NCBI GenBank assembly: GCA_003282175.1
Contig: QBZX01000001.1
Span: 32,615 to 96,614 of the forward strand
Reading direction: 5' to 3'
DNA length: 64,000 nt
Origin: Pelagibacteraceae bacterium AG-337-G06
GTDB lineage: Bacteria; Pseudomonadota; Alphaproteobacteria; Pelagibacterales; AG-422-B15
Positions 18,010 to 40,938 of the stretch are shown in pieces. The notes below the pieces were generated by a model. It worked only from the letters and a program-made list of their open reading frames with translations. It was not told where the DNA came from and searched no databases. Position numbers and translations under genes: made by a program. Each line of letters starts with the position of its first letter. Position 1 is the stretch's first letter.

Positions 18010-18058
18010 AAAAGAAATTAGTTTACTAGTATTACTATAATATCATATAACAATTTTA

Positions 18059-19264
18059 ATGGTTATTAATATTCAAAATAAAGAAACTGAAATAAAATCT
18101 CTTTCTGCTTGGGATGATGTTCTTAATTTAGATGATCAGCTTTCAGCTGAAGAAAAAATATTACAATCAACAGTGCGAGCATACTGTAAAGAAAAATTGC
18201 TCCCAAGAATAATTGATGACAATAGAAATGAGAATTTTAGCAGGGAAATCTTTACTGAAATGGGAGAACTAGGACTTCTAGGATCGTACTTAGATGGCTA
18301 TGGATGTGCGGGAAGTAATTATGTCTCTTACGGACTAATTACTCGTGAGATAGAAAAAATCGACAGTGCATACCGATCTATAATGTCAGTGCAAACAAGC
18401 CTGGTAATGTACCCTATACATAAATTTGGAAGCAATGAACAAAAAGAACATTATCTACCGAAACTAGCAAAAGGAGAATTGATAGGTAGTTTTGGATTAA
18501 CCGAACCTGATGCTGGAAGTGATCCAGGCGCCATGAAAACGAAAGCAGTAAAAGTAAAAGGTGGATATGAACTAAATGGAACAAAAACATGGATCAGTAA
18601 TGCGCCTCATGCTGATGTGATAATTATTTGGGCCAAGGATGAAGAAAATGTAATTAGAGGTTTCATTGTTGATAGAGAGTCAAAAGGTCTCTCCACTCCG
18701 AAGATTGAAGGAAAATTATCGCTAAGGGCATCGGCAACAGGACAAGTAATTATGGAAAATGTATTTTGCCCTGAAGATAAAATTTTACCTAAAACAACAG
18801 GTTTAAGTGGACCTTTTCAATGTTTAAATAGTGCCCGTTATGGAATTTCATGGGGTGCAATTGGAGCAGCTGAATTTTGTCTGGCGACTGCAAGGCAATA
18901 TGCTCTAGATAGAAAAATGTTTGGAAAGCCAATTGCCGGGACACAATTGGTTCAGTCTAAATTAGTAGATATGCAAACGGAAATTGCATTAGGGTTAGAG
19001 GCTGCATTAAGAGTCGGACGCCTTATGGATAAAGGGCAATCTGATAGCAATATGGTAAGCTTAATTAAAAGAAATAATGTTTCTAAAAGTTTGGATATAT
19101 GTCGTAACGCCAGAGATATTTTAGGGGGCAACGGTATTTCAGATGAGTATCATGTCATGAGACATATGGTTAACTTAGAAACTGTAAAAACCTATGAAGG
19201 AACTCACGATGTTCACACATTGATAATGGGACGGAATTTAACAGGTATTCAGGCATTTAAATAA
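18059..19264 (+). CDS. Acyl-CoA dehydrogenase, glutaryl-CoA dehydrogenase-like
   Basis: [29 protein letters not shown]; GcdH-like overall. Confidence 0.85.
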
Positions 19265-19268
19265 AATT

Positions 19269-20636
19269 ATGGCATATCTAAATAGAACTACTAAACAATG
19301 GCAGGAGATTGATACCAAACATCACCTCCATCCTTTTACTGACTATAAGTCTCTTGCTGAAGAAGGTAGTATCATTGTAACAAAAGCAGACGGCGTTCAT
19401 CTGACCACATCTGATGATAAGCAGCTATTGGATGCAATGTCTGGGCTTTGGTGTGTTAATGTGGGCTATGGCCGAAAAAATCTTGCTGAAGTTGCCTACA
19501 AGCAAATGCAAGAGCTTCCATATTATAATTCTTTTTTTAAAACTGCTACGCCTCCATCAATCGAGCTAGCAAGAGAATTAGCAGAGTTAAGTCCCCATGA
19601 TCTAAATCATGCATTCTTTTCATCAAGCGGTTCAGAAGCCAACGACACAGTTGTGAGAATGGTGAGGAGATATTGGGATCTTAAAGGTAAGCCAAACAAG
19701 AAAACTTTTATAAGTAGAGAGTTTGCATACCATGGCAGTACAATGACAGGTATGAGCCTTGGTGGGATGACTGCAATGCATTCACAAGGTGATATGATGC
19801 CAGGTTTTGAGCATGTTTTACCACCATATTGGTACAAATACGGAAACGAAATGTCCCAAGATGATTTTGGAATTTTTGCAGCAAACAAAATTGAAGAGAA
19901 GATTAATGAAATAGGCGCTGATAATGTGGCGGCATTTATTGGTGAGCCAATCCAAGGTGCAGGTGGTGTAATCATTCCTCCTGATTCATATTGGCCTAGG
20001 GTCCAAGAAATCTGCAATCAGTATGATATACTTCTTGTAGTTGATGAGGTTATCTGTGGCTTTGGAAGAACAGGAAACTGGTTTGGATCTGATACATATA
20101 ATATCAAGCCCGATATCATCACAATGGCTAAGGGCATAACTTCAGGCTACATACCGCTATCAGGCATCATGATTGGAGACCGTGTTAGTGATACAATTAT
20201 TAATGAAGGTGGTGAGTTTTATCATGGTTATACGTATTCAGGTCATCCAGTAGCTTGCGCAGTAAGTCTTGAGAATTTAAAAGTTATAAAAGAAGAAAAT
20301 CTTATCGAGCAGTCAAGTCAGGTATCTGTCTATTTAGAGCAGCAAATGCGTGAGATTGAAAAGCACCCGCTAGTTGGAGAAGTCAGAATGAAAAGTTTTA
20401 TAGGAGCTGTAGAGTTGGTTAAAGATAAAGAGAAGATGGAAATGTTTGAGGACCCAGGTGTTGTTGGAACAATTTGCAGAGATTACTGTATTGAAAATGG
20501 TTTAGTGATGAGAGCTGTCAGAGATGGAATGATTTTCTGCCCACCGCTAATTTTTAATAATTCCCATGTAGACGAATTATGTGAAAAGCTTAAAAAATCT
20601 TTAGATCAAACACATAATCATATTTCTAAATCGTAA
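19269..20636 (+). CDS. Class III (omega) aminotransferase
   Basis: DEVICGFGRTG, TMAKGITSGYIPLS PLP-Lys motif. Confidence 0.92.
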   Translation: MAYLNRTTKQWQEIDTKHHLHPFTDYKSLAEEGSIIVTKADGVHLTTSDDKQLLDAMSGLWCVNVGYGRKNLAEVAYKQMQELPYYNSFFKTATPPSIELARELAELSPHDLNHAFFSSSGSEANDTVVRMVRRYWDLKGKPNKKTFISREFAYHGSTMTGMSLGGMTAMHSQGDMMPGFEHVLPPYWYKYGNEMSQDDFGIFAANKIEEKINEIGADNVAAFIGEPIQGAGGVIIPPDSYWPRVQEICNQYDILLVVDEVICGFGRTGNWFGSDTYNIKPDIITMAKGITSGYIPLSGIMIGDRVSDTIINEGGEFYHGYTYSGHPVACAVSLENLKVIKEENLIEQSSQVSVYLEQQMREIEKHPLVGEVRMKSFIGAVELVKDKEKMEMFEDPGVVGTICRDYCIENGLVMRAVRDGMIFCPPLIFNNSHVDELCEKLKKSLDQTHNHISKS

Positions 20637-22960: not shown

Positions 22961-24589
22961 ATGCCAAAAAATACTCATGATGTAATTGTTGTAGGAGCCG
23001 GCCATAACGGCTTAACAGCGGCTAGTTATATGGCTAAAGCTGGGCTCGATGTCGTTGTTTTAGAAAAAAATGATTGGATTGGCGGTGCTGCGGTGAGCCG
23101 AGAACTGTACCCTGGATGGAAATATTCAAATTGTTCCTATGTTTGTAGTTTATTAAGACCTGAGATCATGCGTGACTTGGAACTTTATAAATATGGACTT
23201 CAAATTATTCCTTATGAAGGCAGTGCAACGATGATGAAAAATGGAGATTATTATACTCATTATCATGATCATGATATGACCATCAACTCTATTAGACGTC
23301 ATTCTCATAAAGATGCAGAAGCTTATGAAAGATATAGCCGCGATGTTCTTAGGCAATGTAAAATTATTAAGCCTCTTCTTAAAATGACGCCTCCTGACTT
23401 AACATCGTTCAAACCAAAAGATTTATTTGGAGCGCTGGAGTTTGCAAAGCATTTTGCTGCAAAAGATGAATTAGGTGGACTAGGAGAAAAAGAAATTTAT
23501 GACACAATTCGCTTTTATACGATGAGTATCAGAGATTACTTAGAAGAATATTTTGAAAGTGAAATTACCAAAGCTCACCTTGCTGGCAGCGCAATTATTG
23601 GAACTGCTCTGGGCCCATGCTCACCAGGATCAGCTTATGTATTGTTGCATCATTACATGGGTGAAGTTGACGGATCAGTTGGTTCATGGGGATATGCACG
23701 AGGTGGAATGGGATCTATTACTCAGGCAATGATGGGTTGTCTAAAAGATCATGGAGGAGAAGTAAAACCTAGTAGCGAAGTAACAAATGTTATTACAAAA
23801 AATGGAAAAGCAATCGGTGTTGCTACACAAAATGGAGATGAATACTATGCTAAGAAAATAGTTTCCAACCTTGATGTCAAAAGAACTTTTTTAAAGATTA
23901 CTGAAGAGAAGGACCTTCCAGATGATTTTGTGCGAAGTGTTAAAAATTTTAAGATAAGGGGTTCATCTGGTAAATTAAATATAGCATTAGATGGCTTACC
24001 AGACTTTCCTTGTATTCCTGAAGGTGATCCAGGTGGTGGCGGAGACATGCATTTCACAGAAACGATAGAAGAGATGGAAGGAGCTTATGATGATTGGAAA
24101 AGGGGAGAATGGTCTCGTAATCCATATGTTGATATGTGCATTCCATCAAAAAGTGACCCTACAATGGCTGAGCCAGGTAAACATTATATGTCTGTATTTA
24201 TTCAGTATGTACCATTTAACCTTGCAAATGGTGGTTGGAATGAAGAGAGAAAGCAGGAATTTGGAAGACACATAGTTGATTGTATTGCAGAGTTTTCTCC
24301 TAACTTTAAAGACCTAATTAATCATTATGAGGTACGTACACCACTAGAATTAGAAAACGAGGTTGGTTTGACAGAAGGCAATATTTTTCAAGGAGAGTTG
24401 ACCATGGACCAATTAATGTTCAATAGGCCAGTTCCAGGATATGCGCAGTATCGGACTCCATTAAAAAATATGTATATATGTAGCTCTTCAACACATCCAG
24501 GCGGAGGTGTAATGGGCGCACCAGGAGCTAACGCAGCTCGTGAAGTTCTATTAGACATGAACGTTCCACAAAAAGGAAATTATTATTAA
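22961..24589 (+). CDS. NAD(P)/FAD-dependent oxidoreductase, phytoene-dehydrogenase-like
   Basis: VIVVGAGHNGLTAASYMAKAGLDVVVLEK; SSSTHPGGGVMGAPGANAA C-terminal motif. Confidence 0.85.
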   Translation: MPKNTHDVIVVGAGHNGLTAASYMAKAGLDVVVLEKNDWIGGAAVSRELYPGWKYSNCSYVCSLLRPEIMRDLELYKYGLQIIPYEGSATMMKNGDYYTHYHDHDMTINSIRRHSHKDAEAYERYSRDVLRQCKIIKPLLKMTPPDLTSFKPKDLFGALEFAKHFAAKDELGGLGEKEIYDTIRFYTMSIRDYLEEYFESEITKAHLAGSAIIGTALGPCSPGSAYVLLHHYMGEVDGSVGSWGYARGGMGSITQAMMGCLKDHGGEVKPSSEVTNVITKNGKAIGVATQNGDEYYAKKIVSNLDVKRTFLKITEEKDLPDDFVRSVKNFKIRGSSGKLNIALDGLPDFPCIPEGDPGGGGDMHFTETIEEMEGAYDDWKRGEWSRNPYVDMCIPSKSDPTMAEPGKHYMSVFIQYVPFNLANGGWNEERKQEFGRHIVDCIAEFSPNFKDLINHYEVRTPLELENEVGLTEGNIFQGELTMDQLMFNRPVPGYAQYRTPLKNMYICSSSTHPGGGVMGAPGANAAREVLLDMNVPQKGNYY

Positions 24590-26106
24590 TGCCTGGCAAT
24601 TCGAGTTTTGATGCCATCATAATTGGTGGAGGTCATAATGGATTAGTATGCGCAAACGTCCTTGCTAGAAAAAATAAAAGAGTATTAATCTGCGAAGCCC
24701 GAAAAGAATGTGGTGGTATGGTCAATAATGATATTACCAACTATGTACCTCCAGTAACATCTGCCGTTTCAAGCTCGATTGGTGGAATGCAAATAAACTA
24801 CGTACCAAAGACCACAATTGCCTTATCTGAAACTGGACAACACATACGACTAGTGGGCAATCAACACATTGATCATAAATCTATCTCAACATTTTCTTCT
24901 CATGATGCTGACCGATTTAATGATTTTCATGAAAAAATGTCAAAATTCTCAAAAACTTTAGGCTCTTTCATGATGGCATCTCCTCCGCGAATAATGAACA
25001 ATAGTTTTTCTGACTATTTTAAACTCTTTAAGCTTGGATTGAATGTCAGGTTATTAGGAAAGAAAAATTTTAATGAGTTTGCTAGAATGATTGGCCTAAA
25101 TATAGCTGATGAACTTGAAGACAATTTTGAAAATACACTATTTCAAGGATTGGTAGCGCATGACTCGGTTATAGGTTCTAATTTAGGCCCGCGTTCACCA
25201 GGCTCTCTCATAAACTTATTGTATAGAATGGCTATCCATAACAATTCTTTATTCGGTGGTATATTCCAAATAGAGGGCGGCAATGATCAATTCACTAAAC
25301 ATTTAATTGAAAAATGCAAAAGTAATAATGTAGAAATAAAAACTTCAGCTTCTGTTAAAAATTGTATTATTGAAAATGACTGCGCTGTAGGCGTTGAGCT
25401 AAACAATGGTGAAAAAATGTATGCTAAGAAAATTATTTCAAATGCAGATCCACGTTCAACTTACTTTTCACTGCTCGGTTCTCAAAACCTTGATACTGAC
25501 GTAAAGAGGAAAATAAAACACCATCGCTCCAAAGGAAGAGTTGCCAAACTCATTTTAGAGTTGGATAAGCTCCCTAGTTTTAACAATTGTGATGACAATG
25601 ATTTAGACAGCAGAATGGTTGTTGCGCCATCTATTGATTACATTGAAGAAACATTTAATCCAAGCAAGTTTGATAAGCTTTCACTAGAGCCAACACTTGA
25701 GATATGTGTAAAAAAAGACTCTGATCAAAATCCAAAGTTAGATATTCAAGTGCAATATGCACCATATAAAACTCATCAAGGGTGGGAAAATGTAAAAGAA
25801 AATTATATTGAATCTGTAATCAAAATCATTAGTAAATATGCTCCTAATATTAATGAATGCATTGAGCGTAAGAAATTACTAACCCCTGACGATATTGAAT
25901 CAGAATATAATGTATCAGGAGGGCACTGGCATCATGGTGAGATTCAAATTGATCAGCTTTTTATGATGCGCCCAATTCCAGGAGCCTCACAGTATAAAAC
26001 ACATTTGGATGGTCTTTTTATGTGCGGAGCAGGGACACACCCAGGTGGCGGTTTAACGGGCATTTCAGGCAAAAATGCAGCTAAAGCAGTCTTGGATGAT
26101 TTTTAA
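24589..26106 (+). CDS. NAD(P)/FAD-dependent oxidoreductase, paralogue of the preceding gene
   Basis: IIIGGGHNGLVCANVLARKNKRVLICEA; GAGTHPGGGLTGISGKNAA; TAATG overlap. Confidence 0.85.
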   Translation: MPGNSSFDAIIIGGGHNGLVCANVLARKNKRVLICEARKECGGMVNNDITNYVPPVTSAVSSSIGGMQINYVPKTTIALSETGQHIRLVGNQHIDHKSISTFSSHDADRFNDFHEKMSKFSKTLGSFMMASPPRIMNNSFSDYFKLFKLGLNVRLLGKKNFNEFARMIGLNIADELEDNFENTLFQGLVAHDSVIGSNLGPRSPGSLINLLYRMAIHNNSLFGGIFQIEGGNDQFTKHLIEKCKSNNVEIKTSASVKNCIIENDCAVGVELNNGEKMYAKKIISNADPRSTYFSLLGSQNLDTDVKRKIKHHRSKGRVAKLILELDKLPSFNNCDDNDLDSRMVVAPSIDYIEETFNPSKFDKLSLEPTLEICVKKDSDQNPKLDIQVQYAPYKTHQGWENVKENYIESVIKIISKYAPNINECIERKKLLTPDDIESEYNVSGGHWHHGEIQIDQLFMMRPIPGASQYKTHLDGLFMCGAGTHPGGGLTGISGKNAAKAVLDDF

Positions 26107-27306
26107 ATGACGCAAGATCTTAGATATTCAGCTTTAAAGAAAACACCTTTTCATGCAAAAACCAGTTTGGCTTCGCGAACGAACAAATATTATAACTGGA
26201 ATGGATATACAGTGCCTACAGAATACTCAACTACTGAGCTTGAATATACAGCAGCAAGAAATGGAACATCAGTTATGGATCTAACCCCTATGGGCAAATA
26301 TGAAATTATAGGAGATCATGCGCATCAATTTGTCGATTACTTAGTTACTAGAGATTTATCAAAAATGAAGGACAATACAGTAGCTTATATCATCTGGTGT
26401 AATGAAGATGGAAAGGTGATCGACGATGGTACTATTTTCAAATTTTCTTCAACAAAATTTATGCTTTGCTGTGCTGTTAAAATATATAACTGGCTTAATG
26501 ACTCAGCTTATGGTTTTGATGTTACAATTACTGATGTGACAGATACAATTGCTGCACTAGCAATTCAAGGGCCAACATCCTGTTCAACTTTAAAAAAATT
26601 TGGAGCAACAGATCTTGAAACATTAAAACCTTTTGAAATGAGAGAATATAAGATTGATGGTTCCGATATTTTAATATCACGTACAGGATTTACAGGTGAT
26701 TTGGGTTATGAATTGTGGACTGATCCAAAAAATGCAGAAACGACGTGGGACAATATTGAAATTGCTGGTAAGGAATTAAAATTAAGACCTTTTGGAATGT
26801 ATGCACTCGAAATGACTAGGATTGAAGCAGGATTTATTCAAACCAATACAGACTTTATGGCCGCAGAAGACTCATTAAGGCCGACCAGAATGAGATCACC
26901 TTATGAAATTGGAATGGGATGGCTTGTGCACTTAAACAAAAACTCATATTTTGTTGGAAAGAAAGCACTTAAAAAAGAAAAAGAAGAAAATACTACTGAA
27001 AGATGTTTAGTAGGTTTGGATATAGATGGAGATAAGCCAGCACATGGTTCTGTAATATATAACAGCAAAAAAGAGGACATTGGAATTGTAACTGCAGCTT
27101 TATGGTCTCCTATTATGAAAAAAAATATTGCACTTGCTTCACTCAAGAGACCGTACGGAATAAAAATAAAAGAAAACATATTTGCAGAAATTTATCACCC
27201 TGAAGAACTTGAGTACCGAAAAATATGGGCACGATGTAAGGTAGTTAAAAGGCAATTTTTTAACCCTGAAAGAAGAAATAAGGTACCTGCAGATCTATAC
27301 GAATAG
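26107..27306 (+). CDS. Aminomethyltransferase (GcvT)-like, probable THF-dependent demethylase
   Basis: GcvT-fold protein: LAIQGPTS, ISRTGFTGDLGYELW, EMTRIEAGFI. Confidence 0.85.
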   Translation: MTQDLRYSALKKTPFHAKTSLASRTNKYYNWNGYTVPTEYSTTELEYTAARNGTSVMDLTPMGKYEIIGDHAHQFVDYLVTRDLSKMKDNTVAYIIWCNEDGKVIDDGTIFKFSSTKFMLCCAVKIYNWLNDSAYGFDVTITDVTDTIAALAIQGPTSCSTLKKFGATDLETLKPFEMREYKIDGSDILISRTGFTGDLGYELWTDPKNAETTWDNIEIAGKELKLRPFGMYALEMTRIEAGFIQTNTDFMAAEDSLRPTRMRSPYEIGMGWLVHLNKNSYFVGKKALKKEKEENTTERCLVGLDIDGDKPAHGSVIYNSKKEDIGIVTAALWSPIMKKNIALASLKRPYGIKIKENIFAEIYHPEELEYRKIWARCKVVKRQFFNPERRNKVPADLYE

Positions 27307-27338
27307 CCAAAAAATAAGTATTTTAAAATAATTCAATT

Positions 27339-27356
27339 ATTGAACAGCTGTTCAAT
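27339..27356. promoter_or_regulatory. Putative TetR operator O2 (ATTGAA-N6-TTCAAT)
   Basis: Perfect 18-bp palindrome ATTGAACAGCTGTTCAAT between the GcvT-like and aminotransferase genes. Confidence 0.75.
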
Positions 27357-27368
27357 TTAGGCTATAAT
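27340..27368 (+). promoter_or_regulatory. Putative internal sigma70 promoter overlapping O2
   Basis: TTGAAC(27340-27345)-N17-TATAAT(27363-27368); downstream ATG at 27374. Confidence 0.65.
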
Positions 27369-27373
27369 GATTC

Positions 27374-28777
27374 ATGCCTAAATCAACATCACAATCTGCT
27401 AAAAACGATTTAAAGAATACTCTAGATGATAGAATCCTTCATCCGTGGCAATACTTAGAATACAGAGGTGAAGATGATCGTACATTTATCGATAAGTCTG
27501 AGGGAATTTACTTATATGACAAGACAGGAAAAAAACTGATTGATGGACCTGGAGGCATGTGGAATGTCAATGTCGGTCATGGCGTTAAAGAAATTGCGGA
27601 TGCAGTTTATAATCAAATTACTAAAATGCCATATGCAAGTCCGTTTACTGAGTCAACAGAAATAGCTCACGATTATGCATCAAGACTTGTTCAATACGCA
27701 CCGGGTGATTTAAAGAGAATTTTTTTTACGTCTGGGGGATCGTCTGCTGTGGACTCAGCATTACGATTTGTAATGTTCTATAATAATATTCTTGGCCGAA
27801 AAGAAAAAAAACAAATTATATCAAGAAACGATGCTTACCATGGCAGTACATTTTTAGGAGCTTCTTGTTCAGGCAAGGAAAGAGATAAAAATAATTTTGA
27901 TTTCGCAAGTAATATTGTTCATCATATTTCATCTCCTAATCCTTTTCGTAAACCCGATGATCTTACTGACGAAGAATTCTGTGATCTAAAAGTTCAAGAA
28001 TTAGAAAACAAAATAATTGAAATTGGGGCTGACAAGGTAGCTGCTTTCATTGCTGAACCTATCTTAGCTTCAGGTGGCGTGATTGTCCCACCAAAAGGTT
28101 ATCATAAGAAGACACATGAAATTTGTAAAAAACATGATGTGTTGTATATTTCTGACGAAATCGTCACTGGCTTTGGAAGACTTGGTCATATTTTTGCTTC
28201 AGAAAATTATTTTGATTTTACACCAGATATTATTCTTTTGGCTAAAGGGATTACATCTGGATATGTGCCTTGTGGAGCAGTTGTTATATCGGAGCGATTG
28301 ATGTCCAAATTAGATAATAAAGAGAAAGTAATTTTTTCAAACGGTTTCACAGACTCAGGGCATCCTGTTAGTATGGCCGCCGCAACTGCTACTTTAGACT
28401 ACATTGAAAAAACAAACTTACTTGATCACGTAAAAGATGTTGGTCCTTATTTTCAAGCAAAATTAAGAGAGCTTACTGATTTGCCAATTGTTGGTGAAGT
28501 TAGAGGTGAAGGTCTAATGGCTGCAGTAGAATGTGTTGGCAATAAAGATAAAAAAGATCCACTCAATTTATCCTATGAGATTGGCTCTAGGATTAATGAA
28601 CATTGCCAGCAACTTGGTTTAATTGTACGACCATTATTTAGTACATGTGTCATGTCACCGTCATTAATTATCACGAAGGAACAAATTGATGACCTTGTTT
28701 CTATTTTGCGTAAAGGCATAGAGTTAGCAACTGATGATATCAAAAAAGAAGGTCTTTGGTCAGCAACTTCAAATTAA
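27374..28777 (+). CDS. Class III aminotransferase
   Basis: SDEIVTGFGRLG, LLAKGITSGYVPCG motifs. Confidence 0.92.
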   Translation: MPKSTSQSAKNDLKNTLDDRILHPWQYLEYRGEDDRTFIDKSEGIYLYDKTGKKLIDGPGGMWNVNVGHGVKEIADAVYNQITKMPYASPFTESTEIAHDYASRLVQYAPGDLKRIFFTSGGSSAVDSALRFVMFYNNILGRKEKKQIISRNDAYHGSTFLGASCSGKERDKNNFDFASNIVHHISSPNPFRKPDDLTDEEFCDLKVQELENKIIEIGADKVAAFIAEPILASGGVIVPPKGYHKKTHEICKKHDVLYISDEIVTGFGRLGHIFASENYFDFTPDIILLAKGITSGYVPCGAVVISERLMSKLDNKEKVIFSNGFTDSGHPVSMAAATATLDYIEKTNLLDHVKDVGPYFQAKLRELTDLPIVGEVRGEGLMAAVECVGNKDKKDPLNLSYEIGSRINEHCQQLGLIVRPLFSTCVMSPSLIITKEQIDDLVSILRKGIELATDDIKKEGLWSATSN

Positions 28778-30015
28778 TGACCTTTTTTAATCAACTTAAA
28801 GAAAGATATGAAGAAGGAAAGACTCTTCCGCAAGAGTTTTATACAGACGAAGAAATATTCTCTGACGAAATGAAAAAAATTTATTTCAAACAGTGGCTAA
28901 TGGTTGATCATGTTAGCCGTATTCCAAATCCTGGAGATTATTTTTTATTTAACGCAGAAAAAGAGTCCATAATTCTAATACGTGGAAGGGATAGTCAAGT
29001 TAGAGCTTTTTACAACGTTTGTTCTCATCGTGGCTCAAGAATATGTTTGGAAGAAGAAGGAACAAAAAAACTGTTAGTTTGTCCATATCATGCTTGGAGT
29101 TTCTCTGCAGAGGGTAAATTAAAGTCAGCACGCTACATGCCAGATGATTTTAAAATGGAAGATTGGGGTTTAAAGCCTTGTCATATGAATATCTATCAAG
29201 GCTTGATATTCATAAATCTTTCAATGGATGAACCAATGGATTTTAATGAGTTTATTGCTCCATTGACTGAGCTTGTAAATTTTCATAATCCTGAAAAGGC
29301 AAAGATTGCTGCTAGACGAAAATATCCTACGAAAGCTAATTTCAAACTTGTCCTAGAAAATTTCCAAGAATGCTATCACTGTGGTCCAGCACATCCAGAG
29401 CTATGTTCAGTACATGAAAAAGACTGGGTATTCACAATGGGTGCCGGTCTTGGAACGGCCCCGGAAAAAGAAACACAAGAATATTTAAAAAAGATTCAAC
29501 CATGGATTGAGGATTGCAAAACAAAAGGAATTCCCTCAAAAACATATTTAGAAACTGAAGAAGGATTAAGTAAGGGATTAAATCGATACGTAGACCGTAC
29601 ACCCATTGGAAATGGAAATTTATCACAAACTAAAGATGGCAAACCAGCCTCTAAACTAATGGGTCAGTTTAAAGAATTTGATGGTGGTTTATCCCAAGTA
29701 AGTTTTAATCCTTTTAGCTGTTGTTACTTTACAAATGATTTTGGAGTTATGTTTATATTTAAGCCATTATCAATTTTGCAGTCTGAAGTTGAATTGATTT
29801 GGTTAGTCAATGAGGAAGCTGAAGAAGGCAAAGATTTTAATGAAGAAAACCTTACTCACATATGGGACGTAACCACTGCACATGACACAACCATTATTGA
29901 AAATAATCAAAATGGTTTGTTGTCTCATTCATTTAGTCCTGGAGTACTCTCACAGAACGAGTCTGCCGTCACGTATTTTTATGATTGGTATTTTACCAAT
30001 ATGAGACTACCATAA
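28777..30015 (+). CDS. Rieske [2Fe-2S] ring-hydroxylating-type oxygenase alpha subunit (CntA/GbcA-like)
   Basis: Rieske motif CSHRGSRICLEEEGTKKLLVCPYHAW; mononuclear Fe motif ENFQECYHCGPAH; start moved to MTFFNQLKERY, ATG overlapping the previous stop. Confidence 0.9.
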   Translation: MTFFNQLKERYEEGKTLPQEFYTDEEIFSDEMKKIYFKQWLMVDHVSRIPNPGDYFLFNAEKESIILIRGRDSQVRAFYNVCSHRGSRICLEEEGTKKLLVCPYHAWSFSAEGKLKSARYMPDDFKMEDWGLKPCHMNIYQGLIFINLSMDEPMDFNEFIAPLTELVNFHNPEKAKIAARRKYPTKANFKLVLENFQECYHCGPAHPELCSVHEKDWVFTMGAGLGTAPEKETQEYLKKIQPWIEDCKTKGIPSKTYLETEEGLSKGLNRYVDRTPIGNGNLSQTKDGKPASKLMGQFKEFDGGLSQVSFNPFSCCYFTNDFGVMFIFKPLSILQSEVELIWLVNEEAEEGKDFNEENLTHIWDVTTAHDTTIIENNQNGLLSHSFSPGVLSQNESAVTYFYDWYFTNMRLP

Positions 30016-30032
30016 TGTAGGACAAATTTCTT

Positions 30033-31388
30033 ATGAAACAGCTGTACAACAAGAATATTTACGACGTTAATAAACCAGTAGAAAGCTATTGGGAAGAGGT
30101 CAGCAGCATTGACCAAAATAAGTATCCAGAATTAGTTGGAGATCAATCATGTGATGTATGTGTCATTGGAGGTGGCTTTACAGGCATTAGTACGGCTTAT
30201 CATATTGCAAAAAATTATGGTGGAGATGTAAGAGTGTTAGAATCTGGGCACTATGGTTTTGCAAGTAGTGCAAGGAATGCGGGTTTTTGCTGTCTACCTG
30301 CTACAAAGTTATCTACCACACAATTAATAAAAAAGTTTGGTATGGAAGAGACAAAGAAATTTTTTTCATCTCAAATTGAAGGTGTTGATCTTCTTGCATC
30401 TATAATATCAGAAAATAATATTGATTGTGAAAAAGTAGGTGATGGCAACCTTGATGTAGCTCACCATCCAGGCAGCAGTGAAGAGTTAAAAGAATGGGGA
30501 AATGAACTGAAAGAGTATTTTGGTATTAATACAAAATGGATACCTAAAGAAGAATTTGATGAAGTTGGACATCAATCAACTGAACAATTTGGAGCAGTTT
30601 TTACAGAGGCTGGATTTGCAATGAATCCGATGGCGTTTATGCGAGGCTTTGCATCAGCAACTGTAGATGCAGGCGCAAAATTACATAGTTTTTCAAGAGT
30701 AAAAAAATGGGAGAGAAATGGATCACATAAGCTAATAACAGATGGTGGATCAATTACTGCGAATAAAGTTGTTGTAGCGACTAATGGTTACACAGATGAG
30801 TCACTACATCCAAGTTTTGCAAATCGAATGATGCCAGTCCTATCAAATATTATTGTTACCAGAGAAATGAGTGATGATGAATTTAAGTTACAAAACTACA
30901 AAACATTAAATCCCATATGTAATTCTAGAGAAATTTTATATTATTATAGAAGAATGCCTTCTAACAGGATGTTGTTTGGCACAAGAGGTGATACTTATGG
31001 TGATGATGCAAGTGCGCTAAAAATGAGAGAATTTATGACTCAAAAATTTAGAGGCGTTTTTCCTAATTGGAATAATATTGATATTGATCACTACTGGAGA
31101 GGTACAGTTGTAATGACTAGAGATTTTGTACCTGCATTTGGCGCATTAGATGACGACAAGTCAGTGTTATTTTCATATGGCTATCAGGCAAATGGTAACA
31201 ATACTACAGTTTATTGTGGAAAGAAGTTGGCTGAGATGATCTATGAATCCAATAGTGGAGAAACTAATATTTCTAAAGTCTATCAAGGACTCTCTCCAAA
31301 AATACCACTAGGGTTTTTAAGATTATGGTATTTAAGACTATATCTATGGTATTCAAATTTTACAGATAAAAGTAAAAAAGAAATATAA
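30033..31388 (+). CDS. FAD-dependent oxidoreductase (DAO family, PuuB-like)
   Basis: SCDVCVIGGGFTGISTAYHIAKNYGGDVRVLES; HYWRGTVVMTRDFVPAFGAL. Confidence 0.88.
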   Translation: MKQLYNKNIYDVNKPVESYWEEVSSIDQNKYPELVGDQSCDVCVIGGGFTGISTAYHIAKNYGGDVRVLESGHYGFASSARNAGFCCLPATKLSTTQLIKKFGMEETKKFFSSQIEGVDLLASIISENNIDCEKVGDGNLDVAHHPGSSEELKEWGNELKEYFGINTKWIPKEEFDEVGHQSTEQFGAVFTEAGFAMNPMAFMRGFASATVDAGAKLHSFSRVKKWERNGSHKLITDGGSITANKVVVATNGYTDESLHPSFANRMMPVLSNIIVTREMSDDEFKLQNYKTLNPICNSREILYYYRRMPSNRMLFGTRGDTYGDDASALKMREFMTQKFRGVFPNWNNIDIDHYWRGTVVMTRDFVPAFGALDDDKSVLFSYGYQANGNNTTVYCGKKLAEMIYESNSGETNISKVYQGLSPKIPLGFLRLWYLRLYLWYSNFTDKSKKEI

Positions 31389-31424
31389 ATTGCATCTATT
31401 ATTTATATAAATTAAAATTTTCAA

Positions 31425-32309
31425 ATGTTGCAAGTTTGGAAGTCATTTTATGCAAGGAGTGATCCTGCAAAAGCTTATTCACTTCTTTCTCCTGCATTGA
31501 TTCTAGTTACTTTAGCTATGCTTATACCTTTAGGGCTAATGTTGAGTTTTAGCTTTTTCACTCAAGTTAGCTTTACTGAAATTGACTACTCTTTCACCGT
31601 TCAAAGGTATATTGATTTTTTTCAAAAGAACTTGCTTGTCTCTTTACTTATAAAATCAGTGAAGATTTCGTTTATTGTAACTTTTGTAACTCTTCTTACT
31701 GCATATCCTGTCTGTTATTACATAGCTTTTTATGTAAAGAAAAATAAAATGTTATGGCTTGTTTTACTGACTTTACCTTTCTGGACATCTTATCTTTTAA
31801 GGGTTTTTTCCTGGAAAATTATACTTGGAACTAAGGGAGTTATTAATTCTTCTTTAATTAATGCAGGACTACTTAGCGAACCTCTCACTTTTCTAATGTA
31901 TTCTGAGACTGCAGTTATCATAACACTTACCCATGCATGGGCAGCATTTGCCTTATTACCTTTGTATGTATCATTGGATAAAATAGATTTTTCTCTAATT
32001 GAAGCTGCCAGAGACTTAGGATTGTCAAGATTAGAAACTTTTTGGAAAATTACACTTCCATTATCTCTTCCTGGAATAATTGGTGCCATACTAATCATTT
32101 TTATTCCAACAGTAGGAGATTATGTTACTCCTGCATTACTTGGAGGAACTGATGGGAGAATGCTATCAAATATGATCCAGGCTTACTTTGGAAAAGTAAA
32201 CAATCTTCCTCTTGGTGCCGCGTCTGCAACTATTATGCTTATTACTGTTGCGATAGTGACAATGATTGTTTCATATACAACAAAAAAACTTACTCAAAGG
32301 ATTTCATAA
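31425..32309 (+). CDS. potB: ABC transporter permease (PotB-like)
   Basis: Binding-protein-dependent permease EAARDLGLSRLETFWKITLPLSLPGI. Confidence 0.88.
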   Translation: MLQVWKSFYARSDPAKAYSLLSPALILVTLAMLIPLGLMLSFSFFTQVSFTEIDYSFTVQRYIDFFQKNLLVSLLIKSVKISFIVTFVTLLTAYPVCYYIAFYVKKNKMLWLVLLTLPFWTSYLLRVFSWKIILGTKGVINSSLINAGLLSEPLTFLMYSETAVIITLTHAWAAFALLPLYVSLDKIDFSLIEAARDLGLSRLETFWKITLPLSLPGIIGAILIIFIPTVGDYVTPALLGGTDGRMLSNMIQAYFGKVNNLPLGAASATIMLITVAIVTMIVSYTTKKLTQRIS

Positions 32310-33125
32310 GTGGAACAAAAGAACAATACATTGTTAATCTATACATTATTGTATTTTGCATTTTTATATATCCCTGTTTTATTCTTGCCAATATTTAGCT
32401 TTAATGATGCAAATTATATGTCATTTCCACTCTCAGGATTTACAACAGAGCATTATGAAGAAATGTGGGCAAAAACAAATTTACATAAAGCTCTTTGGGC
32501 TAGTATCAAAGTAGGTGTAGTTGCAAGTGTCGTCAGCACAACAATTGCACTTTTCGCAGCCAAAGCATTCGCACGTTATAAATTCAGAGGGCAAAATATT
32601 TCTTACGGGGCTATTATGATTCCTTTTTTAATACCAGAAATTATTTTAGCGGTTGCAATACTTGTTATTTGGTTAAGCCTTGGTTTTAAATTAGGACTTG
32701 TACCGGTAACTTTAGGACATATTCTTTTTTGTACTCCATTTGCAATGCTTATTTTAATTGCTCGTATAGAAGGCTTTGATTTCTCACTAGAGGAAGCATC
32801 AAGAGACCTTGGGGAAAACGCCTGGGGGACATTTTACCGAGTATCTCTTCCATTATACCTACCAGGCATAATAGCTTCACTTTTATTGAGTTTTATAATT
32901 TCATTTGATGAATTTGTTCTGGCATTCTTCCTAACTGGAAGCGATGCAACATTGCCTATGTATATGTGGGCTCAAATGAGATTTATTCAGAAACTGCCTC
33001 ATGTATTAGCTTTAGGAGCGGTTATAATTGTGTTTACTACTTTTATAGTTTTGTTAGCATTCTGGTTGAGAAACCTTGGCCAAGGAAAAGAGAAAGCTGA
33101 ATTTGGAATAAAAATACATGAATGA
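32310..33125 (+). CDS. potC: ABC transporter permease (PotC-like), GTG start
   Basis: EEASRDLGENAWGTFYRVSLPLYLPGI; abuts potB. Confidence 0.88.
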   Translation: MEQKNNTLLIYTLLYFAFLYIPVLFLPIFSFNDANYMSFPLSGFTTEHYEEMWAKTNLHKALWASIKVGVVASVVSTTIALFAAKAFARYKFRGQNISYGAIMIPFLIPEIILAVAILVIWLSLGFKLGLVPVTLGHILFCTPFAMLILIARIEGFDFSLEEASRDLGENAWGTFYRVSLPLYLPGIIASLLLSFIISFDEFVLAFFLTGSDATLPMYMWAQMRFIQKLPHVLALGAVIIVFTTFIVLLAFWLRNLGQGKEKAEFGIKIHE

Positions 33126-34200
33126 TTCTTTCATACAGATAAACGGAATTTCTAAGCATTTTGGAAATGTAAAAGCAGTAGATGATGTCTCTTTTCAAAT
33201 CAAAGAGGGAGAGTTTTTCTCTCTGCTAGGCCCGTCAGGTTGTGGCAAAACAACATTATTGAGATTACTAGCTGGCTTTGAGTATCCTACTAGTGGCAAT
33301 CTATTACTTGATGGCAGTGATATTACTGCATTACCTCCTGATAAAAGACCTACAAATATGGTTTTTCAGAATTATGCAATATTTCCACATATCAATGTTG
33401 AAAAAAATGTTCAGTTTGGCTTGAGAAAACTTGGCTTAACAAATGATGAAATTATCAAAAGAGTTAAGGATGTTTTGTCGTTAGTAAAATTAGAAGGTTA
33501 TGAGGAACGCTATAGTAGCCAACTATCTGGAGGTCAAAGACAAAGAGTGGCATTAGCAAGGGCTTTAGTAAGACAACCGAAAGTATTATTATTGGATGAG
33601 CCACTTGGGGCACTAGATAAAAAGTTACGTGACGAAATGCAACTTGAACTAAGAACTCTTCAAAAAGAGATTGGAATAACTTTTGTATTTGTTACACACG
33701 ATCAGCAGGAGGCTATTAGTATGTCAGATCGTGTTGCGGTGATGAGTGAGGGTAAAATTCAGCAGATGTCATCTCCAAACGAATTATATAAAAATCCTCA
33801 AAATATATTTGTGAGTGACTTTATTGGCGAAACTAATTTTTTAAAAGCTAAGACAGATTCTAAAGATGGAGAATATATTAATGTTAACATTGAAGACCTT
33901 GGTTCATTTAAAATAAAAAATAATCTCAATATAAGTGAAAATGCCTCAGATGTTATTTGCAGCGTTCGTCCAGAGACAATGATGATTGACAAAGAAAAAT
34001 CAGACTGGGATATTTGCTTAGAAGGTATAATCAAGCAAACATCATATCTAGGTGAAATGACAAAATTTTACGTTGAAACTAAAGAAATAGAAAAAATTAT
34101 AACCGTATCATCACAATATTTTGATAATCAATCTTTTCAAGATGGTAAATGCTTTATCAGCATAAATTTAAACGATATTTCCTTACTGAATAAAAAATAG
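33118..34200 (+). CDS. potA: ABC transporter ATP-binding protein (PotA-like)
   Basis: GPSGCGKTTLLR, LSGGQRQRVALARAL, TOBE-like C-terminus. Confidence 0.92.
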   Translation: MNDSFIQINGISKHFGNVKAVDDVSFQIKEGEFFSLLGPSGCGKTTLLRLLAGFEYPTSGNLLLDGSDITALPPDKRPTNMVFQNYAIFPHINVEKNVQFGLRKLGLTNDEIIKRVKDVLSLVKLEGYEERYSSQLSGGQRQRVALARALVRQPKVLLLDEPLGALDKKLRDEMQLELRTLQKEIGITFVFVTHDQQEAISMSDRVAVMSEGKIQQMSSPNELYKNPQNIFVSDFIGETNFLKAKTDSKDGEYINVNIEDLGSFKIKNNLNISENASDVICSVRPETMMIDKEKSDWDICLEGIIKQTSYLGEMTKFYVETKEIEKIITVSSQYFDNQSFQDGKCFISINLNDISLLNKK

Positions 34201-35408: not shown

Positions 35409-36905
35409 TTAAAGGGGAATCAAGGGACGATTTTTGTTTGAATTAAGCCATGGATCTAACATTTCGTAGTTGTACCCACCCTGGAATACTAATTCATCGC
35501 TGTAAGATCGAGCAATAATTTGGATTCCTGTTGGAATATTGCTAGAGCTTAATCCTGAAGGGACTGATAGGACGGGTAATTTACCCAACATATTAAATGG
35601 ATGTGACATGACCCAAGAAAAATCTGCACACTTCTGCTCTTTATTATTGATAATGATATTTTCATTAACAATATCAATATCAGCTTTAATTGAAGGTAAA
35701 GAGTTTGTAGGACATATAAATAAATCGTAACTGTCTAATATTGGTCCAATTTCTGAATACATACGGCCTGTGATTTCTGAGCTTTCAATAATATCATATC
35801 CAACATAAGCCCCTATTTGATCATGATAGTACTTCTCATTATTTTGAATCGCTCTGATATGTAATTCAGGGACTTCAGCAAACATTTTTGCATAATCAGT
35901 TAATAGTTTTTTTTCATCGTTTGAAAATTTTGCTATGAGGCCATAAAATGAATTTGCGTAATGACTGAAGCAAACTGAATTTACTTCATCTCGATTCCAA
36001 TTTAATTTTACTTCTGTAATTGATGCACCAAGAGCCTCAAATTTTTTTAAAGCCTCCAATGTATTTTTTTCAACTTCTTCATCCACTTCAAAAAATCCAA
36101 GATCAAGTGAATAAGCAATTTTCCAGTTCTTAATATTCTCAAACTTATTAGGAATAATTTTTTTGGGTCTGAGTGAAGCAATATCATTTTTATTTGGACC
36201 ACTCATAACATTTTGCATAAGGGCACAATCACTAACAGTTCTCGCAAGGGGACCAACAACACAATACGGATCATGATTAAAAGGATAACCCATTGGATTT
36301 CTTCCATAGGGAGGTTTGTAACCAACGACTCCGCAGGCCCCAGCAGGGATACGAATTGATCCACCTATATCACTGCCAGTTGCAAGTGATGTGCAACCCG
36401 ACGCTAGTGCGGCAGCACTCCCTCCACTTGAACCTCCTGGTGTCATATCTAAGTTCCAGGGATTTCTTGTGACACCATTCACTTTGGAATGGCAGAATGA
36501 TGTCAGTGAAAACTCTGGGTTAGTTGTGCGCGCATGAATTATTGCACCAGAGCTTACAAGGGACTCTACATCTACATCAGTTCTTTCTGCTATTACGTCT
36601 TTATAGATTAAGCTTCCATTCTTATTAGGTTGTCCCTCTATATTAACTTCATCTTTAATTGCTAAAGGCAAACCTTCCAAAGGCAAAGTAGATTTATCTT
36701 CTGTATATTTTAATTCTGAATGTTTTGCTTCTTTCAATGCTTCTTCGAAGCGAAAAAAATTAAAAGCATTAATTTTTGGGTTTACATTCTCAATTCTTTT
36801 TATTGTCTCATTTAAAAGCTCAACTGGAGACAAAGATTTATTTTTAAATTTTTCTAGGGCTTCAGAAGCTGATAAATAACAAATATCGAGGTCTAAACTA
36901 CTCAT
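35409..36905 (-). CDS. Amidase (amidase signature family)
   Basis: GGSSGGSAAALASG, TGSDIGGSIRIPAGACG motifs. Confidence 0.92.
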   Translation of the reverse strand: MSSLDLDICYLSASEALEKFKNKSLSPVELLNETIKRIENVNPKINAFNFFRFEEALKEAKHSELKYTEDKSTLPLEGLPLAIKDEVNIEGQPNKNGSLIYKDVIAERTDVDVESLVSSGAIIHARTTNPEFSLTSFCHSKVNGVTRNPWNLDMTPGGSSGGSAAALASGCTSLATGSDIGGSIRIPAGACGVVGYKPPYGRNPMGYPFNHDPYCVVGPLARTVSDCALMQNVMSGPNKNDIASLRPKKIIPNKFENIKNWKIAYSLDLGFFEVDEEVEKNTLEALKKFEALGASITEVKLNWNRDEVNSVCFSHYANSFYGLIAKFSNDEKKLLTDYAKMFAEVPELHIRAIQNNEKYYHDQIGAYVGYDIIESSEITGRMYSEIGPILDSYDLFICPTNSLPSIKADIDIVNENIIINNKEQKCADFSWVMSHPFNMLGKLPVLSVPSGLSSSNIPTGIQIIARSYSDELVFQGGYNYEMLDPWLNSNKNRPLIPL

Positions 36906-36957: not shown

Positions 36958-38052
36958 ATGATTGATCAAAACATTAGAGACATTATTAAAAACCAAGACC
37001 CTAATAAAGGAATGGATCAGCTTTTTTTCACCAACAAAGCATTGTTTGATCTAAGTTATGAGGCTGTTTTTAAGAAACAGTGGGTATTTCTTACTCATCT
37101 ATCTTATTTTAATGAAAACAATACATTTATTTATCAAATTAACGGTGGGTTTGTTGAAATAAAAAATTCTAAAGGTAATAATTTAACTATCTCATCATCT
37201 TTGCCTGATTTCAAATGTCATTTAAAAGTTTATGAAAGCTTAATTTTTGTCAACTTTTCTGAAGTACCATATTCATTTGAAGAATTCATAAAACCACTAG
37301 AACCATATATTAAAATTCATGGCCTTAATGACGGTAAGATCGCATTTCAAAAAGACTTTATATTTAATGCTTCTCATCTTGCAACCATTCACAACTTCAA
37401 AGAATGCGCGCATTGTTGGGGGGGTGAGTTTACTCACAAAGATTATTTAAGTGTTCATGGGGAGGCGTATTGTAATTCTTATGGAGCTGGGGTTGGCTCA
37501 GGAATTGAATCTCCTGAATTCAATCAACGTATAAAAGATTGGACATTTGAAAGTCAAAATAAAGGTTTGTTTGTTGGTGAGTACAGTGAAGATACCAACA
37601 AATATTTTAGAATTGCAGAGCGCACTCCTTTACCTGAAGGCATTATGTCTGAGACAATGGATGGTAGCTATTCATGCTCTTCACTGATGGGGGACTTTAA
37701 AACCATAGGACCAGATCATGGTTATACCGCTATTGGTTTTAGCCCATTCAATAGCTTTGTTGCCAATAATGAATTTGTAATTCTTTTTTTATTTACTCCT
37801 GTTAGTCAAAATAAAACAATCGTTACTCAATTTTGGGTTACTCACAAAGATGCTGAAGTTGACATTGATAAAATGATTTTTCTTTGGGACCAAACATCAA
37901 CAGAAGATTCCCAATTGTGTGAAATGAATCAAAAGGGCATTGAAAGTCGAGCTTATCAGCCTGGAAAGTATGGCGAACTAGAGACAAGCTTGGTTCAATA
38001 TCAAAAGTTCTATCTAAGTCATTTACAAAATCACGTTAATGGACTGACTTAA
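36958..38052 (+). CDS. Ring-hydroxylating oxygenase alpha-subunit-like protein lacking the Rieske domain ligands
   Basis: Aligns by eye with the 28777-30015 product (KKQWVFLTHLSYF, HNFKECAHC, SLMGDFK, GFSPFNSF) but has no CxH/CxxH pair. Confidence 0.8.
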   Translation: MIDQNIRDIIKNQDPNKGMDQLFFTNKALFDLSYEAVFKKQWVFLTHLSYFNENNTFIYQINGGFVEIKNSKGNNLTISSSLPDFKCHLKVYESLIFVNFSEVPYSFEEFIKPLEPYIKIHGLNDGKIAFQKDFIFNASHLATIHNFKECAHCWGGEFTHKDYLSVHGEAYCNSYGAGVGSGIESPEFNQRIKDWTFESQNKGLFVGEYSEDTNKYFRIAERTPLPEGIMSETMDGSYSCSSLMGDFKTIGPDHGYTAIGFSPFNSFVANNEFVILFLFTPVSQNKTIVTQFWVTHKDAEVDIDKMIFLWDQTSTEDSQLCEMNQKGIESRAYQPGKYGELETSLVQYQKFYLSHLQNHVNGLT

Positions 38053-38066
38053 GTCAGGGATATAAA

Positions 38067-39437
38067 ATGGAAGTTGCTACACAAGCTGAATTTGATGAAA
38101 TATTAAGCCAGTACAATAATATTCAATATGTCGATGCTATCTTCACAGATTTATGTGGTTATGTAAGAGGAAAACGTTTCCCAGTCCTTGAAGCAAATAA
38201 AATTTTTTCAGATGGCGTTCTTCTCCCATTCTCCGCATTTTATCTAGATGTTCTAGGAGGAGTAACGAATACCCTGAATCTAGGTTGGACAGATGGTGAT
38301 CCTGATGGTGTTCTGGTTCCTGTTAAAGGAAGTATTAAGCCAGTACCGTGGGATGAACGCTTCTTGCAAGTTTTAATCACAATGAGAAAAGAGCAAGAAA
38401 ATTGGGGAGTAATAAAGGACCCATCAGAGGTTGATCCTAGAAATATTTTAAAAAAAGTTATGAAGCATTTTAAAAACACTGGATTGAAGCCAGTGGTTGC
38501 TTTTGAATTAGAATTTTATCTTTTAGACAAAAACAGAGATGAGTCTGGAAAACCAATACCTGCTGAGGGTGCTAATAAAACACATGTTTATGGTATACCA
38601 GACCTTGATCTCTTCGGTAAGTTATTTGATGATATTAATAAGAATTGCGAGATGCAAAATATACCAGCGACTACGGCTTCTAGTGAATTTGCTGCGGGAC
38701 AGTATGAAATTAATCTAAAGCACACAGGAGATCTTCTGAAAGCCGCAGATGATGCTGCTTTATTAAGACGAATTATTAAAGAGACAAGTGCAAGGCACGG
38801 CTATGAAGCAACATTTATGGCTAAACCCTTTTTAGATCAAACAGGTAATGGAATGCATCTTCATCTCTCCGTTTATGATGAAAATGAAAAAAATATTTTT
38901 GCTACTCCGAATCGTTACGGAAATAAAAAATTAAAAAGTGCTATAGCTGGTTTTCAATCAATGTTTTATGATAGTTTTCCAATCTTTATTCCAAATCGAA
39001 ATGGTTACAGAAGAATAGAAACAAGAAATTTCGTTCCTGTTAATACAAGTTGGTCCTGGAATCGAAGAGACGTTTCATTAAGAATACCTGCTGGATCAGA
39101 TGACGCAAAAAGAATTGAACATCGCGTTGCTTCATCAGACGCCAATCCTTATCTAGTCCTAGCATGCTTATTAGCAGGGTTGCACAATGGTTTAGCTAAT
39201 GAATTAACTCCATCAAACCAAGTTGATTTTGATAATAATGAAGGAGCGGATAAAGAAGCTGATATTGATATGCCAAAAAATATGGACCAAGCGTTAGTGC
39301 GTTTCCAATCTTCCAAACTATTAAAAAAATATCTTGGGAAAGAATATCTTAATCTTTACACTGCTGCAAAACAAGGTGAAATTGATCATGTAGAGTCAAG
39401 TTTTGTTCCTCGAGAGGAATATGATCTCTATTTATAA
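38067..39437 (+). CDS. Glutamine synthetase family protein (PuuA / gamma-glutamyl ligase-like)
   Basis: FELEFYLLD, GNGMHLHLSVYDENEKN, RIEHRVASSDANPYL motifs. Confidence 0.88.
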   Translation: MEVATQAEFDEILSQYNNIQYVDAIFTDLCGYVRGKRFPVLEANKIFSDGVLLPFSAFYLDVLGGVTNTLNLGWTDGDPDGVLVPVKGSIKPVPWDERFLQVLITMRKEQENWGVIKDPSEVDPRNILKKVMKHFKNTGLKPVVAFELEFYLLDKNRDESGKPIPAEGANKTHVYGIPDLDLFGKLFDDINKNCEMQNIPATTASSEFAAGQYEINLKHTGDLLKAADDAALLRRIIKETSARHGYEATFMAKPFLDQTGNGMHLHLSVYDENEKNIFATPNRYGNKKLKSAIAGFQSMFYDSFPIFIPNRNGYRRIETRNFVPVNTSWSWNRRDVSLRIPAGSDDAKRIEHRVASSDANPYLVLACLLAGLHNGLANELTPSNQVDFDNNEGADKEADIDMPKNMDQALVRFQSSKLLKKYLGKEYLNLYTAAKQGEIDHVESSFVPREEYDLYL

Positions 39438-39439
39438 TC

Positions 39440-40153
39440 ATGACTGAATTACTTTTTAACAATGATGCTTACCTCACTCAGTCTGAAGCAGTTGTTACAA
39501 ACGTCGATCAAAACTTTATTCAATTAAATCGAACAATTTTCTACGCTGAGTCAGGCGGACAACCGGGTGATCAAGGAGAGATCATCCTAGGAGATCAAAT
39601 TTATAAAGTTATCGACACTCAAAAAGGTAATTCTCCAAATAACATTATTCATTTAGTCGACGGTGATATTGATCAGAGCATTGTTGGTAAAGAATGTGAG
39701 ATCAAGATTGATTGGGAATTGAGACAAAGTCATATGAGAATGCATACCTCATGTCATATTCTGTGTAGTTTGATTGATGCGTTAATTACAGGTGCTTCAG
39801 TTGGTGCAAAAAAAAGTAGAGTTGATTTTGATGTTGACCCGAGTTTGCTTGATAAAGAGGCTATGAATCAACAGATTGATGAAATTATCAAAAATAATTT
39901 TCCTGTATTCACAAAACAAATTTCTGGAGATGAATTTAGAGATAATCCCCATTTAGCAAAAGGCGCTGCTGTTAGTCCTCCCATAATTGATAACAAAGTA
40001 CAAATTGTTCAAATTGGGGAAGATAAAATTTTAGATATACAGGCGTGTGGAGGCACTCATGTGAAATCAACGGGTGAGATTGAAGGATTAGAGATTGGAA
40101 AAATTGAAAATAAAGGTAAAAGAAACCGAAGAGTAAACATAAGGTTTAAATAA
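39440..40153 (+). CDS. Alanyl-tRNA editing protein (AlaX-type)
   Basis: FYAESGGQPGDQGEI; zinc ligands MHTSCH and CGGTHV. Confidence 0.9.
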   Translation: MTELLFNNDAYLTQSEAVVTNVDQNFIQLNRTIFYAESGGQPGDQGEIILGDQIYKVIDTQKGNSPNNIIHLVDGDIDQSIVGKECEIKIDWELRQSHMRMHTSCHILCSLIDALITGASVGAKKSRVDFDVDPSLLDKEAMNQQIDEIIKNNFPVFTKQISGDEFRDNPHLAKGAAVSPPIIDNKVQIVQIGEDKILDIQACGGTHVKSTGEIEGLEIGKIENKGKRNRRVNIRFK

Positions 40154-40938
40154 TGACGAATATTCTCATCAGAAGTGATAAAAATTCAGTTACTACATTA
40201 AGTTTGAATGACCTTCCAGCAAATAGTCTAAGTATGCCTATGATGGGAGAAATTCAAAATCAACTAACAACTATTGATCATGATGATTCTATTCGAGTTG
40301 TAATTATAAAATCTGAAAGTGATAAAATATTTTCCTCAGGGCATAATTTAAAAGAGGTAAAAGGCTTTCTTGATAATAATGATACTAAATCTCAAGTTGA
40401 ATTATTTTCAACGTGTTCCTCGATGATGAAACAAATTCAGGCTTTAAGTAAGCCAGTCATTGCGCAGGTCAGAGGCATAGCAACTGCAGCTGGTGCCCAA
40501 CTAGTTGCCTCATGTGATTTAGCTTATGGATCATTAGACTCAAAATACGCAACTCCAGGAGTAAATATTGGATTATTTTGTCATACACCTCAAGTTGCTG
40601 TCTCAAGGACAATTGGCAGAAAACCAATGATGGAAATGTTGTTAAGTGGAGAACCGATTTCGTCTGAAAGGGCTGTACAAATTGGGTTGATCAATGCTGC
40701 GGTTGATAGTGCAGATTTAGAAAAAATAGTTGATAAGTCATGCAATGATATTTGTAATAAATCAGCTGCTGTTATTGCCATGGGAAAGAAAAGTTTCTAC
40801 CGTCAAAGTGAAATGCCATTAACTGACGCTTATGACTTTACGAGTGCAGAGATGGTAAGGAATTTAACACTCAATGATGGCAACGAGGGAATATCTTCTT
40901 TTCTTGAAAAAAGAGATCCAAACTGGTCTAACGACTAA
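40153..40938 (+). CDS. Enoyl-CoA hydratase/isomerase family (ECHDC3-like)
   Basis: FSSGHNLKE, GIATAAGAQLVASCDLAYGS. Confidence 0.88.
   Translation: MTNILIRSDKNSVTTLSLNDLPANSLSMPMMGEIQNQLTTIDHDDSIRVVIIKSESDKIFSSGHNLKEVKGFLDNNDTKSQVELFSTCSSMMKQIQALSKPVIAQVRGIATAAGAQLVASCDLAYGSLDSKYATPGVNIGLFCHTPQVAVSRTIGRKPMMEMLLSGEPISSERAVQIGLINAAVDSADLEKIVDKSCNDICNKSAAVIAMGKKSFYRQSEMPLTDAYDFTSAEMVRNLTLNDGNEGISSFLEKRDPNWSND

Follow-up and report, generated by a model that had tools for sequence, protein, structure and literature searches.

A Rieske-oxygenase alpha-subunit homologue lacking the cluster-binding subdomain, conserved in one family of Pelagibacterales

What sets Rieske oxygenases apart is a pair of metal centres together with electron transfer between neighbouring subunits. 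The window analysed here, a stretch of 64,000 nucleotides from Pelagibacteraceae bacterium AG-337-G06 (contig QBZX01000001.1), encodes two homologues of the oxygenase alpha subunit, the shorter of which carries no Rieske cluster. This raises the question of how such a protein arose, whether it could still be an iron enzyme, and where its electrons would come from.

Loss of the cluster-binding subdomain

The short gene is an open frame with an ATG start and no internal stops. In Pfam, its product matched Ring_hydroxyl_A only (E 2e-12; 47.7 bits for PF00848 against a cut-off of 24.9), with no match to the Rieske model even at E 1, and the full-length paralogue matched both models. The short protein is a Rieske-oxygenase alpha-subunit homologue that matches the catalytic-domain family only and, strictly defined, it is a derivative of a Rieske oxygenase and not one itself. 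The sequence-only reading had aligned the two proteins by eye over the N-terminus and catalytic domain and had concluded that no [2Fe-2S] ligands remain; the alignment holds, at ~31% identity, and all four ligands (CxH and CxxH) are indeed missing. GbcA (NCBIfam NF058607) was the best curated family for the short protein (137.8 bits) as well as for the paralogue (307.7 bits); neither score comes near the equivalog cut-off of 670 bits, and the name GbcA is therefore given to neither protein. The nearest PDB sequences were 3n0q, 3vca and 4qup.

Alignment of CHLKVYESLIFVNFS from the short protein with CHMNIYQGLIFINLS from the paralogue revealed that the basal strands of the Rieske domain are retained. 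Residues 43–99 are predicted to form six beta strands (pLDDT ~86–94) which align with those flanking the paralogue's cluster-binding subdomain. Because these flanking strands remain, the cluster-binding subdomain is lost from the Rieske domain and the basal part is kept. The missing part amounts to ~50–60 residues, with a net length difference of 48 from the paralogue, and the boundaries of the gap are uncertain by ~10 residues because the strand before it can be aligned in two ways. A segment of about 60 residues had been proposed to be replaced by a short linker; the segment is lost, and the linker that was quoted consists mostly of retained basal strands.

AlphaFold2 gave a pLDDT of 67.7 and a pTM of 0.76 when paralogues were included in the alignment, and a pLDDT of 40 with 19 close orthologues alone. 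The model is poor over about residues 149–214 (pLDDT 31–43 over residues 151–210), and the loop with both histidines is unreliable. Foldseek placed 3n0q and stachydrine demethylase in the first ranks (TMq 0.69–0.70, E ~1e-20 to 1e-18), and the predicted fold is nearest to stachydrine demethylase.

Table 1. Features of the locus, with positions counted from the first nucleotide of the window.
Feature	Position	Strand	Evidence or remark
Full-length Rieske oxygenase alpha subunit, 412 aa, proposed Rieske donor	28777..30015	+	Pfam Rieske and Ring_hydroxyl_A
Divergent amidase, 52 bp upstream of the short oxygenase gene	35409..36905	-	PF01425
Rieske-less oxygenase alpha-subunit paralogue, 364 aa	36958..38052	+	ORF; Pfam PF00848 only; first of a four-gene run
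Residual Rieske basal beta strands, residues 43–99	37084..37254	+	Six predicted strands; alignments; dN/dS
E149, bridging acid (CntA E205 position)	37402..37404	+	Invariant in all orthologues and paralogues aligned
H152, first iron-ligand His (CntA H208 position)	37411..37413	+	Invariant
E157, 3-residue insertion region, in the register of the usual second His	37426..37428	+	Possible alternative ligand
H160, homologue of the second iron-ligand His (CntA H213), displaced to H-x7-H	37435..37437	+	Invariant
D317, carboxylate iron-ligand position (CntA D323)	37906..37908	+	Invariant
Glutamine-synthetase-like gene (gamma-glutamyl ligase type), same run	38067..39437	+	PF00120; TIGR03105 and GGputSyn below cut-off
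AlaX-M-like gene, same run	39440..40153	+	NF040865 below cut-off; not in L042, L046, L104
Enoyl-CoA hydratase-like gene, last of the run	40153..40938	+	NF006008 above cut-off

Conservation and gene neighbourhood

Most genomes of the window's genus encode an orthologue, and orthologues also occur in two other genera of the Pelagibacterales family to which it belongs. All full-length orthologues (39 distinct sequences from ~40 genomes) lack the cluster segment, and their lengths are nearly all 363–364 aa, with the shorter ones lying at contig ends. The CxH...CxxH ligands are missing from every orthologue aligned and the iron ligands are conserved; the two outcomes that the sequence-only reading had named as counting against itself, Rieske ligands in close relatives or variable iron ligands, both came out negative. 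Outside the family, no loss of the segment was seen among ~1,000 sampled genomes (387 alphaproteobacterial, 399 from the phylum and 298 from the order; samples and not a census). Homologues there had frames of ~409 aa or more and aligned over the catalytic part only, and shorter frames were of 372, 299 and 216 aa, the 372- and 299-aa frames being at contig ends. One 27% identical match to the catalytic domain came from L143 (MT835496.1:114144-114962), a human faecal phage record that is neither verified nor annotated and is possibly a bacterial contig filed as phage.

The loss is old and conserved, and the gene is under purifying selection: over 248 pairs (NG86), the median dN/dS was 0.063 over the gene as a whole, 0.039 in the catalytic domain and 0.22 in what is left of the Rieske domain (residues 45–86). 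That the gene was unlikely to be a decaying pseudogene had been suggested from its intact frame and its place at the head of the run, and the frame is open in all orthologues with a catalytic-domain dN/dS of ~0.04. A decaying pseudogene or an assembly artefact, which the deletion of a domain relative to the paralogue might bring to mind, is extremely improbable and was rejected, given the same length and the same loss in ~40 separately assembled genomes, all with open frames and very low dN/dS.

The 'tight four-gene operon' that had been described is real as a run by spacing: the first two gaps measure 14 and 2 bases, the last two genes overlap by 1 base, and the next gene lies on the opposite strand; a promoter scan gave no excess over shuffles. 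Wherever the contig extends far enough, the full-length paralogue is located 7–8 kb upstream of the Rieske-less gene. The order across the genus is FAD oxidoreductases, a GcvT-like gene, a class III aminotransferase, the full-length oxygenase, DAO and three ABC genes, followed by a substrate-binding protein, the amidase, the short oxygenase, the glutamine-synthetase-like gene, AlaX in some genomes and the enoyl-CoA hydratase. The amidase is a conserved neighbour in most relatives and is missing in G443, a genome of the same family.

Several further observations concern the surrounding genes. In L042, L046 and L104, AlaX is missing and the glutamine-synthetase-like protein is only ~60% identical; in many other relatives the enoyl-CoA hydratase is only 41–42% identical; in both cases the flanking genes are similar, and the part of the run at 38067–40938 has been exchanged between relatives. 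The genes at 22961–34200 (two FAD oxidoreductases, GcvT-like, class III aminotransferase, oxygenase, ABC transporter) recur in L141, from an alphaproteobacterium of another family, where the similar cluster has a single, Rieske-containing oxygenase; this cluster probably serves the uptake and catabolism of an N-methylated amine. Further upstream, at 17245–20636, lie genes named by eye as a class I glutamine amidotransferase-like gene, a glutaryl-CoA-dehydrogenase-like acyl-CoA dehydrogenase and a second class III aminotransferase, which might feed the same pathway.

Iron-site residues and the order of changes

The usual iron motif of these enzymes is (D/E)-x2-H-x3/4-H ... D, and the window protein and its derived clade have E149-x2-H152-x7-H160 ... 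D317. E149, H152, H160 and D317 are invariant in the orthologues, also when compared against the paralogues. The second histidine, within ECAHCWGGEFTH, follows a 3-residue insertion, just as had been read from the sequence. The register HxxYxxVH is common to the window protein and the G443 orthologue, and therefore H160 is the homologue of the second iron histidine with the insertion before it. CntA EDLNLVESVQRG aligned to the region of D317, which lies within TSTEDSQLCE, the C-terminal segment already pointed out, and aligns with the third iron ligand (D323 of CntA). E157 is invariant in the derived clade and absent from the G443 orthologue. Based on the H-x7-H spacing, the iron site of the derived clade may be altered or lost.

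An aromatic residue at the CntA-203 position is a mark of the group Va quaternary-ammonium oxygenases (PMC7948474). The short protein has F147 there, the paralogue also has Phe, and several group Vb-like relatives have Asn. Because F147 sits at this position, one may reasonably guess that the substrate is an N-methylated or quaternary ammonium compound, but this is no more than a guess.

The G443 genome is 98% complete and encodes a divergent orthologue in a matching gene neighbourhood (L104, minus strand). The cluster segment and the Rieske Pfam match are both missing from this orthologue, and it keeps NFHECYHCGPAHPE (canonical E-x2-H-x4-H) and the downstream Asp; its score to the catalytic Pfam model (96.5 bits) is higher than that of the paralogue (85.5 bits). 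The presence of the canonical iron motif in a divergent protein that lacks the cluster segment suggests that the cluster was lost first, while the iron site of the protein was still intact. In the simplest history, duplication would be followed by cluster loss and then by a change of the iron loop. With far outgroups, the G443 orthologue grouped with the paralogues (UFBoot 81), but the AU test did not reject a single Rieske-less clade (p 0.19); when closer outgroups were used, the sequences without a Rieske segment came together in one clade, at a UFBoot of only 73. The trees agree only moderately with this history.

Electron supply and possible functions

In 10 genomes of the family, all Rieske domains belong either to full-length oxygenases (the paralogue plus one or two more) or to a short bc1-type protein. 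A hidden Rieske partner encoded elsewhere was rejected on the basis of this Pfam search, which found no free Rieske ferredoxin in the 10 genomes. In the window's genome, Rieske domains are confined to the paralogue, a 387-aa oxygenase and a 180-aa bc1-type protein. The 387-aa frame (G000:C1:233451, L080) is a second full-length Rieske oxygenase with a SECLHC motif and Tyr at the CntA-203 position. No oxygenase reductase with FAD_binding_6 (PF00970) was found in the window's genome, and its oxygenases are accordingly served by a different electron chain. A single small Fer2 ferredoxin is encoded in every genome checked. Should the short subunit depend on a Rieske cluster, the best-placed donor would be the paralogue.

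Three functions had been offered for the short protein: a non-canonical mononuclear-iron enzyme, a heteromeric partner that receives electrons from the full-length paralogue, and a scaffold subunit. The iron enzyme is favoured at the level of sequence, because the ligands are invariant, the catalytic-domain dN/dS is very low and one orthologue has the canonical iron motif; the same evidence does not distinguish the paralogue from another source of electrons. In the reading that we prefer, to which we give a probability of about 0.42, an ancestral quaternary-ammonium-type Rieske oxygenase gene would have been duplicated within one Pelagibacterales family, and one copy would have lost the [2Fe-2S] cluster-binding subdomain while its basal strands and catalytic domain stayed. 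The shortened copy would still bind mononuclear iron through H152, H160 and D317 and would oxidise a substrate of the same pathway that is N-methylated or a quaternary ammonium compound. Electrons from the paralogue's Rieske cluster would cross the subunit contact by way of E149, and cluster and iron would thus reside on different gene products. The sequences themselves show the loss with its age and conservation, the purifying selection, the conserved residues and the co-occurrence with the paralogue; iron binding, oxygenase activity, the substrate and the identity of the donor are what we infer here. We count in favour of this reading the absence of the segment from all full-length orthologues, the low dN/dS, the four invariant residues and the canonical iron motif of the syntenic G443 orthologue, together with the nearby paralogue, the lack of a free Rieske ferredoxin in the 10 family genomes, and the precedents of NdmC, NdmA/NdmB and CntA. 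Counted against it are the H-x7-H spacing, which breaks the usual H-x3/4-H, and the poor model exactly at the iron loop; moreover, genes of one pathway may stay neighbours without their products being in physical contact, and the second full-length oxygenase or a small ferredoxin could be the donor instead.

It is doubtful that the lineage dispensed with the Rieske cluster altogether, leaving a mononuclear-iron enzyme with a remodelled H-x7-H site and an invariant loop Glu that would be reduced directly by a ferredoxin or would need no external electrons. Direct reduction of an active iron enzyme by a small [2Fe-2S] ferredoxin, docking near E149 in the space left by the cluster subdomain and with no Rieske cluster taking part, is unlikely; the Fer2 ferredoxin in each genome checked, the retention of E149 and the lack of a dedicated FAD_binding_6 reductase in the window's genome are consistent with it, but we know of no precedent for a Rieske-type catalytic domain that works without any Rieske cluster. 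NdmC, the nearest precedent, still uses one (PMC4408171). The spacing in the derived clade and the close linkage with the paralogue would also suit a pseudo-enzyme that associates with the paralogue and influences or regulates how the latter assembles or which substrates it accepts. In a scaffold, however, one would expect the interface residues to persist and the ligands to disappear, and the invariant ligand positions and bridging acid, the catalytic-domain dN/dS and the canonical motif of the G443 orthologue make such a non-catalytic role rather unlikely. Quite improbable, in our estimate, is a repurposed metalloenzyme, redox-neutral or reduced by its substrate, in which the altered loop, with E157 or H160 as ligand, would form a new metal site independent of external electrons: neither E157 nor H160 varies in the derived clade and the insertion, judging from the G443 orthologue, postdates the loss of the Rieske cluster, yet E149 is invariant and its known role is electron transfer from a Rieske cluster, and there is no direct sign of new chemistry.

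Comparison with known systems, and significance

The principle of an oxygenase without a Rieske cluster is already known from caffeine demethylation, in NdmC of the NdmCDE N7-demethylase of Pseudomonas putida CBB5, which is completed by NdmD and NdmE (PMC4408171). Compared by description, NdmC resembles the short protein as an oxygenase subunit without a Rieske cluster; in NdmC, as in the reading preferred here, mononuclear iron is on one protein and the cluster on another. In that system the reductase NdmD carries the Rieske domain as a fusion, and the GST-like NdmE is needed (PMC4408171). In contrast, the short protein is of GbcA/Stc2-type descent as far as its sequence indicates and keeps the Rieske basal strands, and the window's genome lacks a Rieske-bearing reductase (Rieske and FAD_binding_6 searches). 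The arrangement would be distinct from that of NdmC and apparently arose in a different branch. A literature search on homarine or SAR11 with Rieske found no matching system.

Stc2 (3vca, 4qup) and 3n0q are the nearest solved structures to the short protein by sequence and predicted fold; they differ from it in having a full Rieske domain, Asn at the CntA-203 position and H-x4-H. CntA and group Va share with the short protein the bridging Glu, an aromatic residue at position 203 and Cys on both sides of the first ligand His, but CntA keeps the Rieske cluster and H-x4-H and its overall similarity to the short protein is lower (~14% in the structural alignment). In CntA, electrons pass between subunits through the bridging Glu, E205 (PMC7948474), and NdmA/NdmB is listed as alpha3alpha'3 (PMC12445004). 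Cluster and iron lie ~12 Å apart in CntA.

If the preferred reading is true, a natural, conserved subunit with the iron-site residues and the bridging acid, and without the cluster, would mean that in these small-genomed ocean bacteria the two centres are encoded by separate genes. This would allow a direct test of which subunit feeds electrons to which. The G443 orthologue, in addition, offers a stepwise record in which cluster loss came first and the change of the iron loop second.
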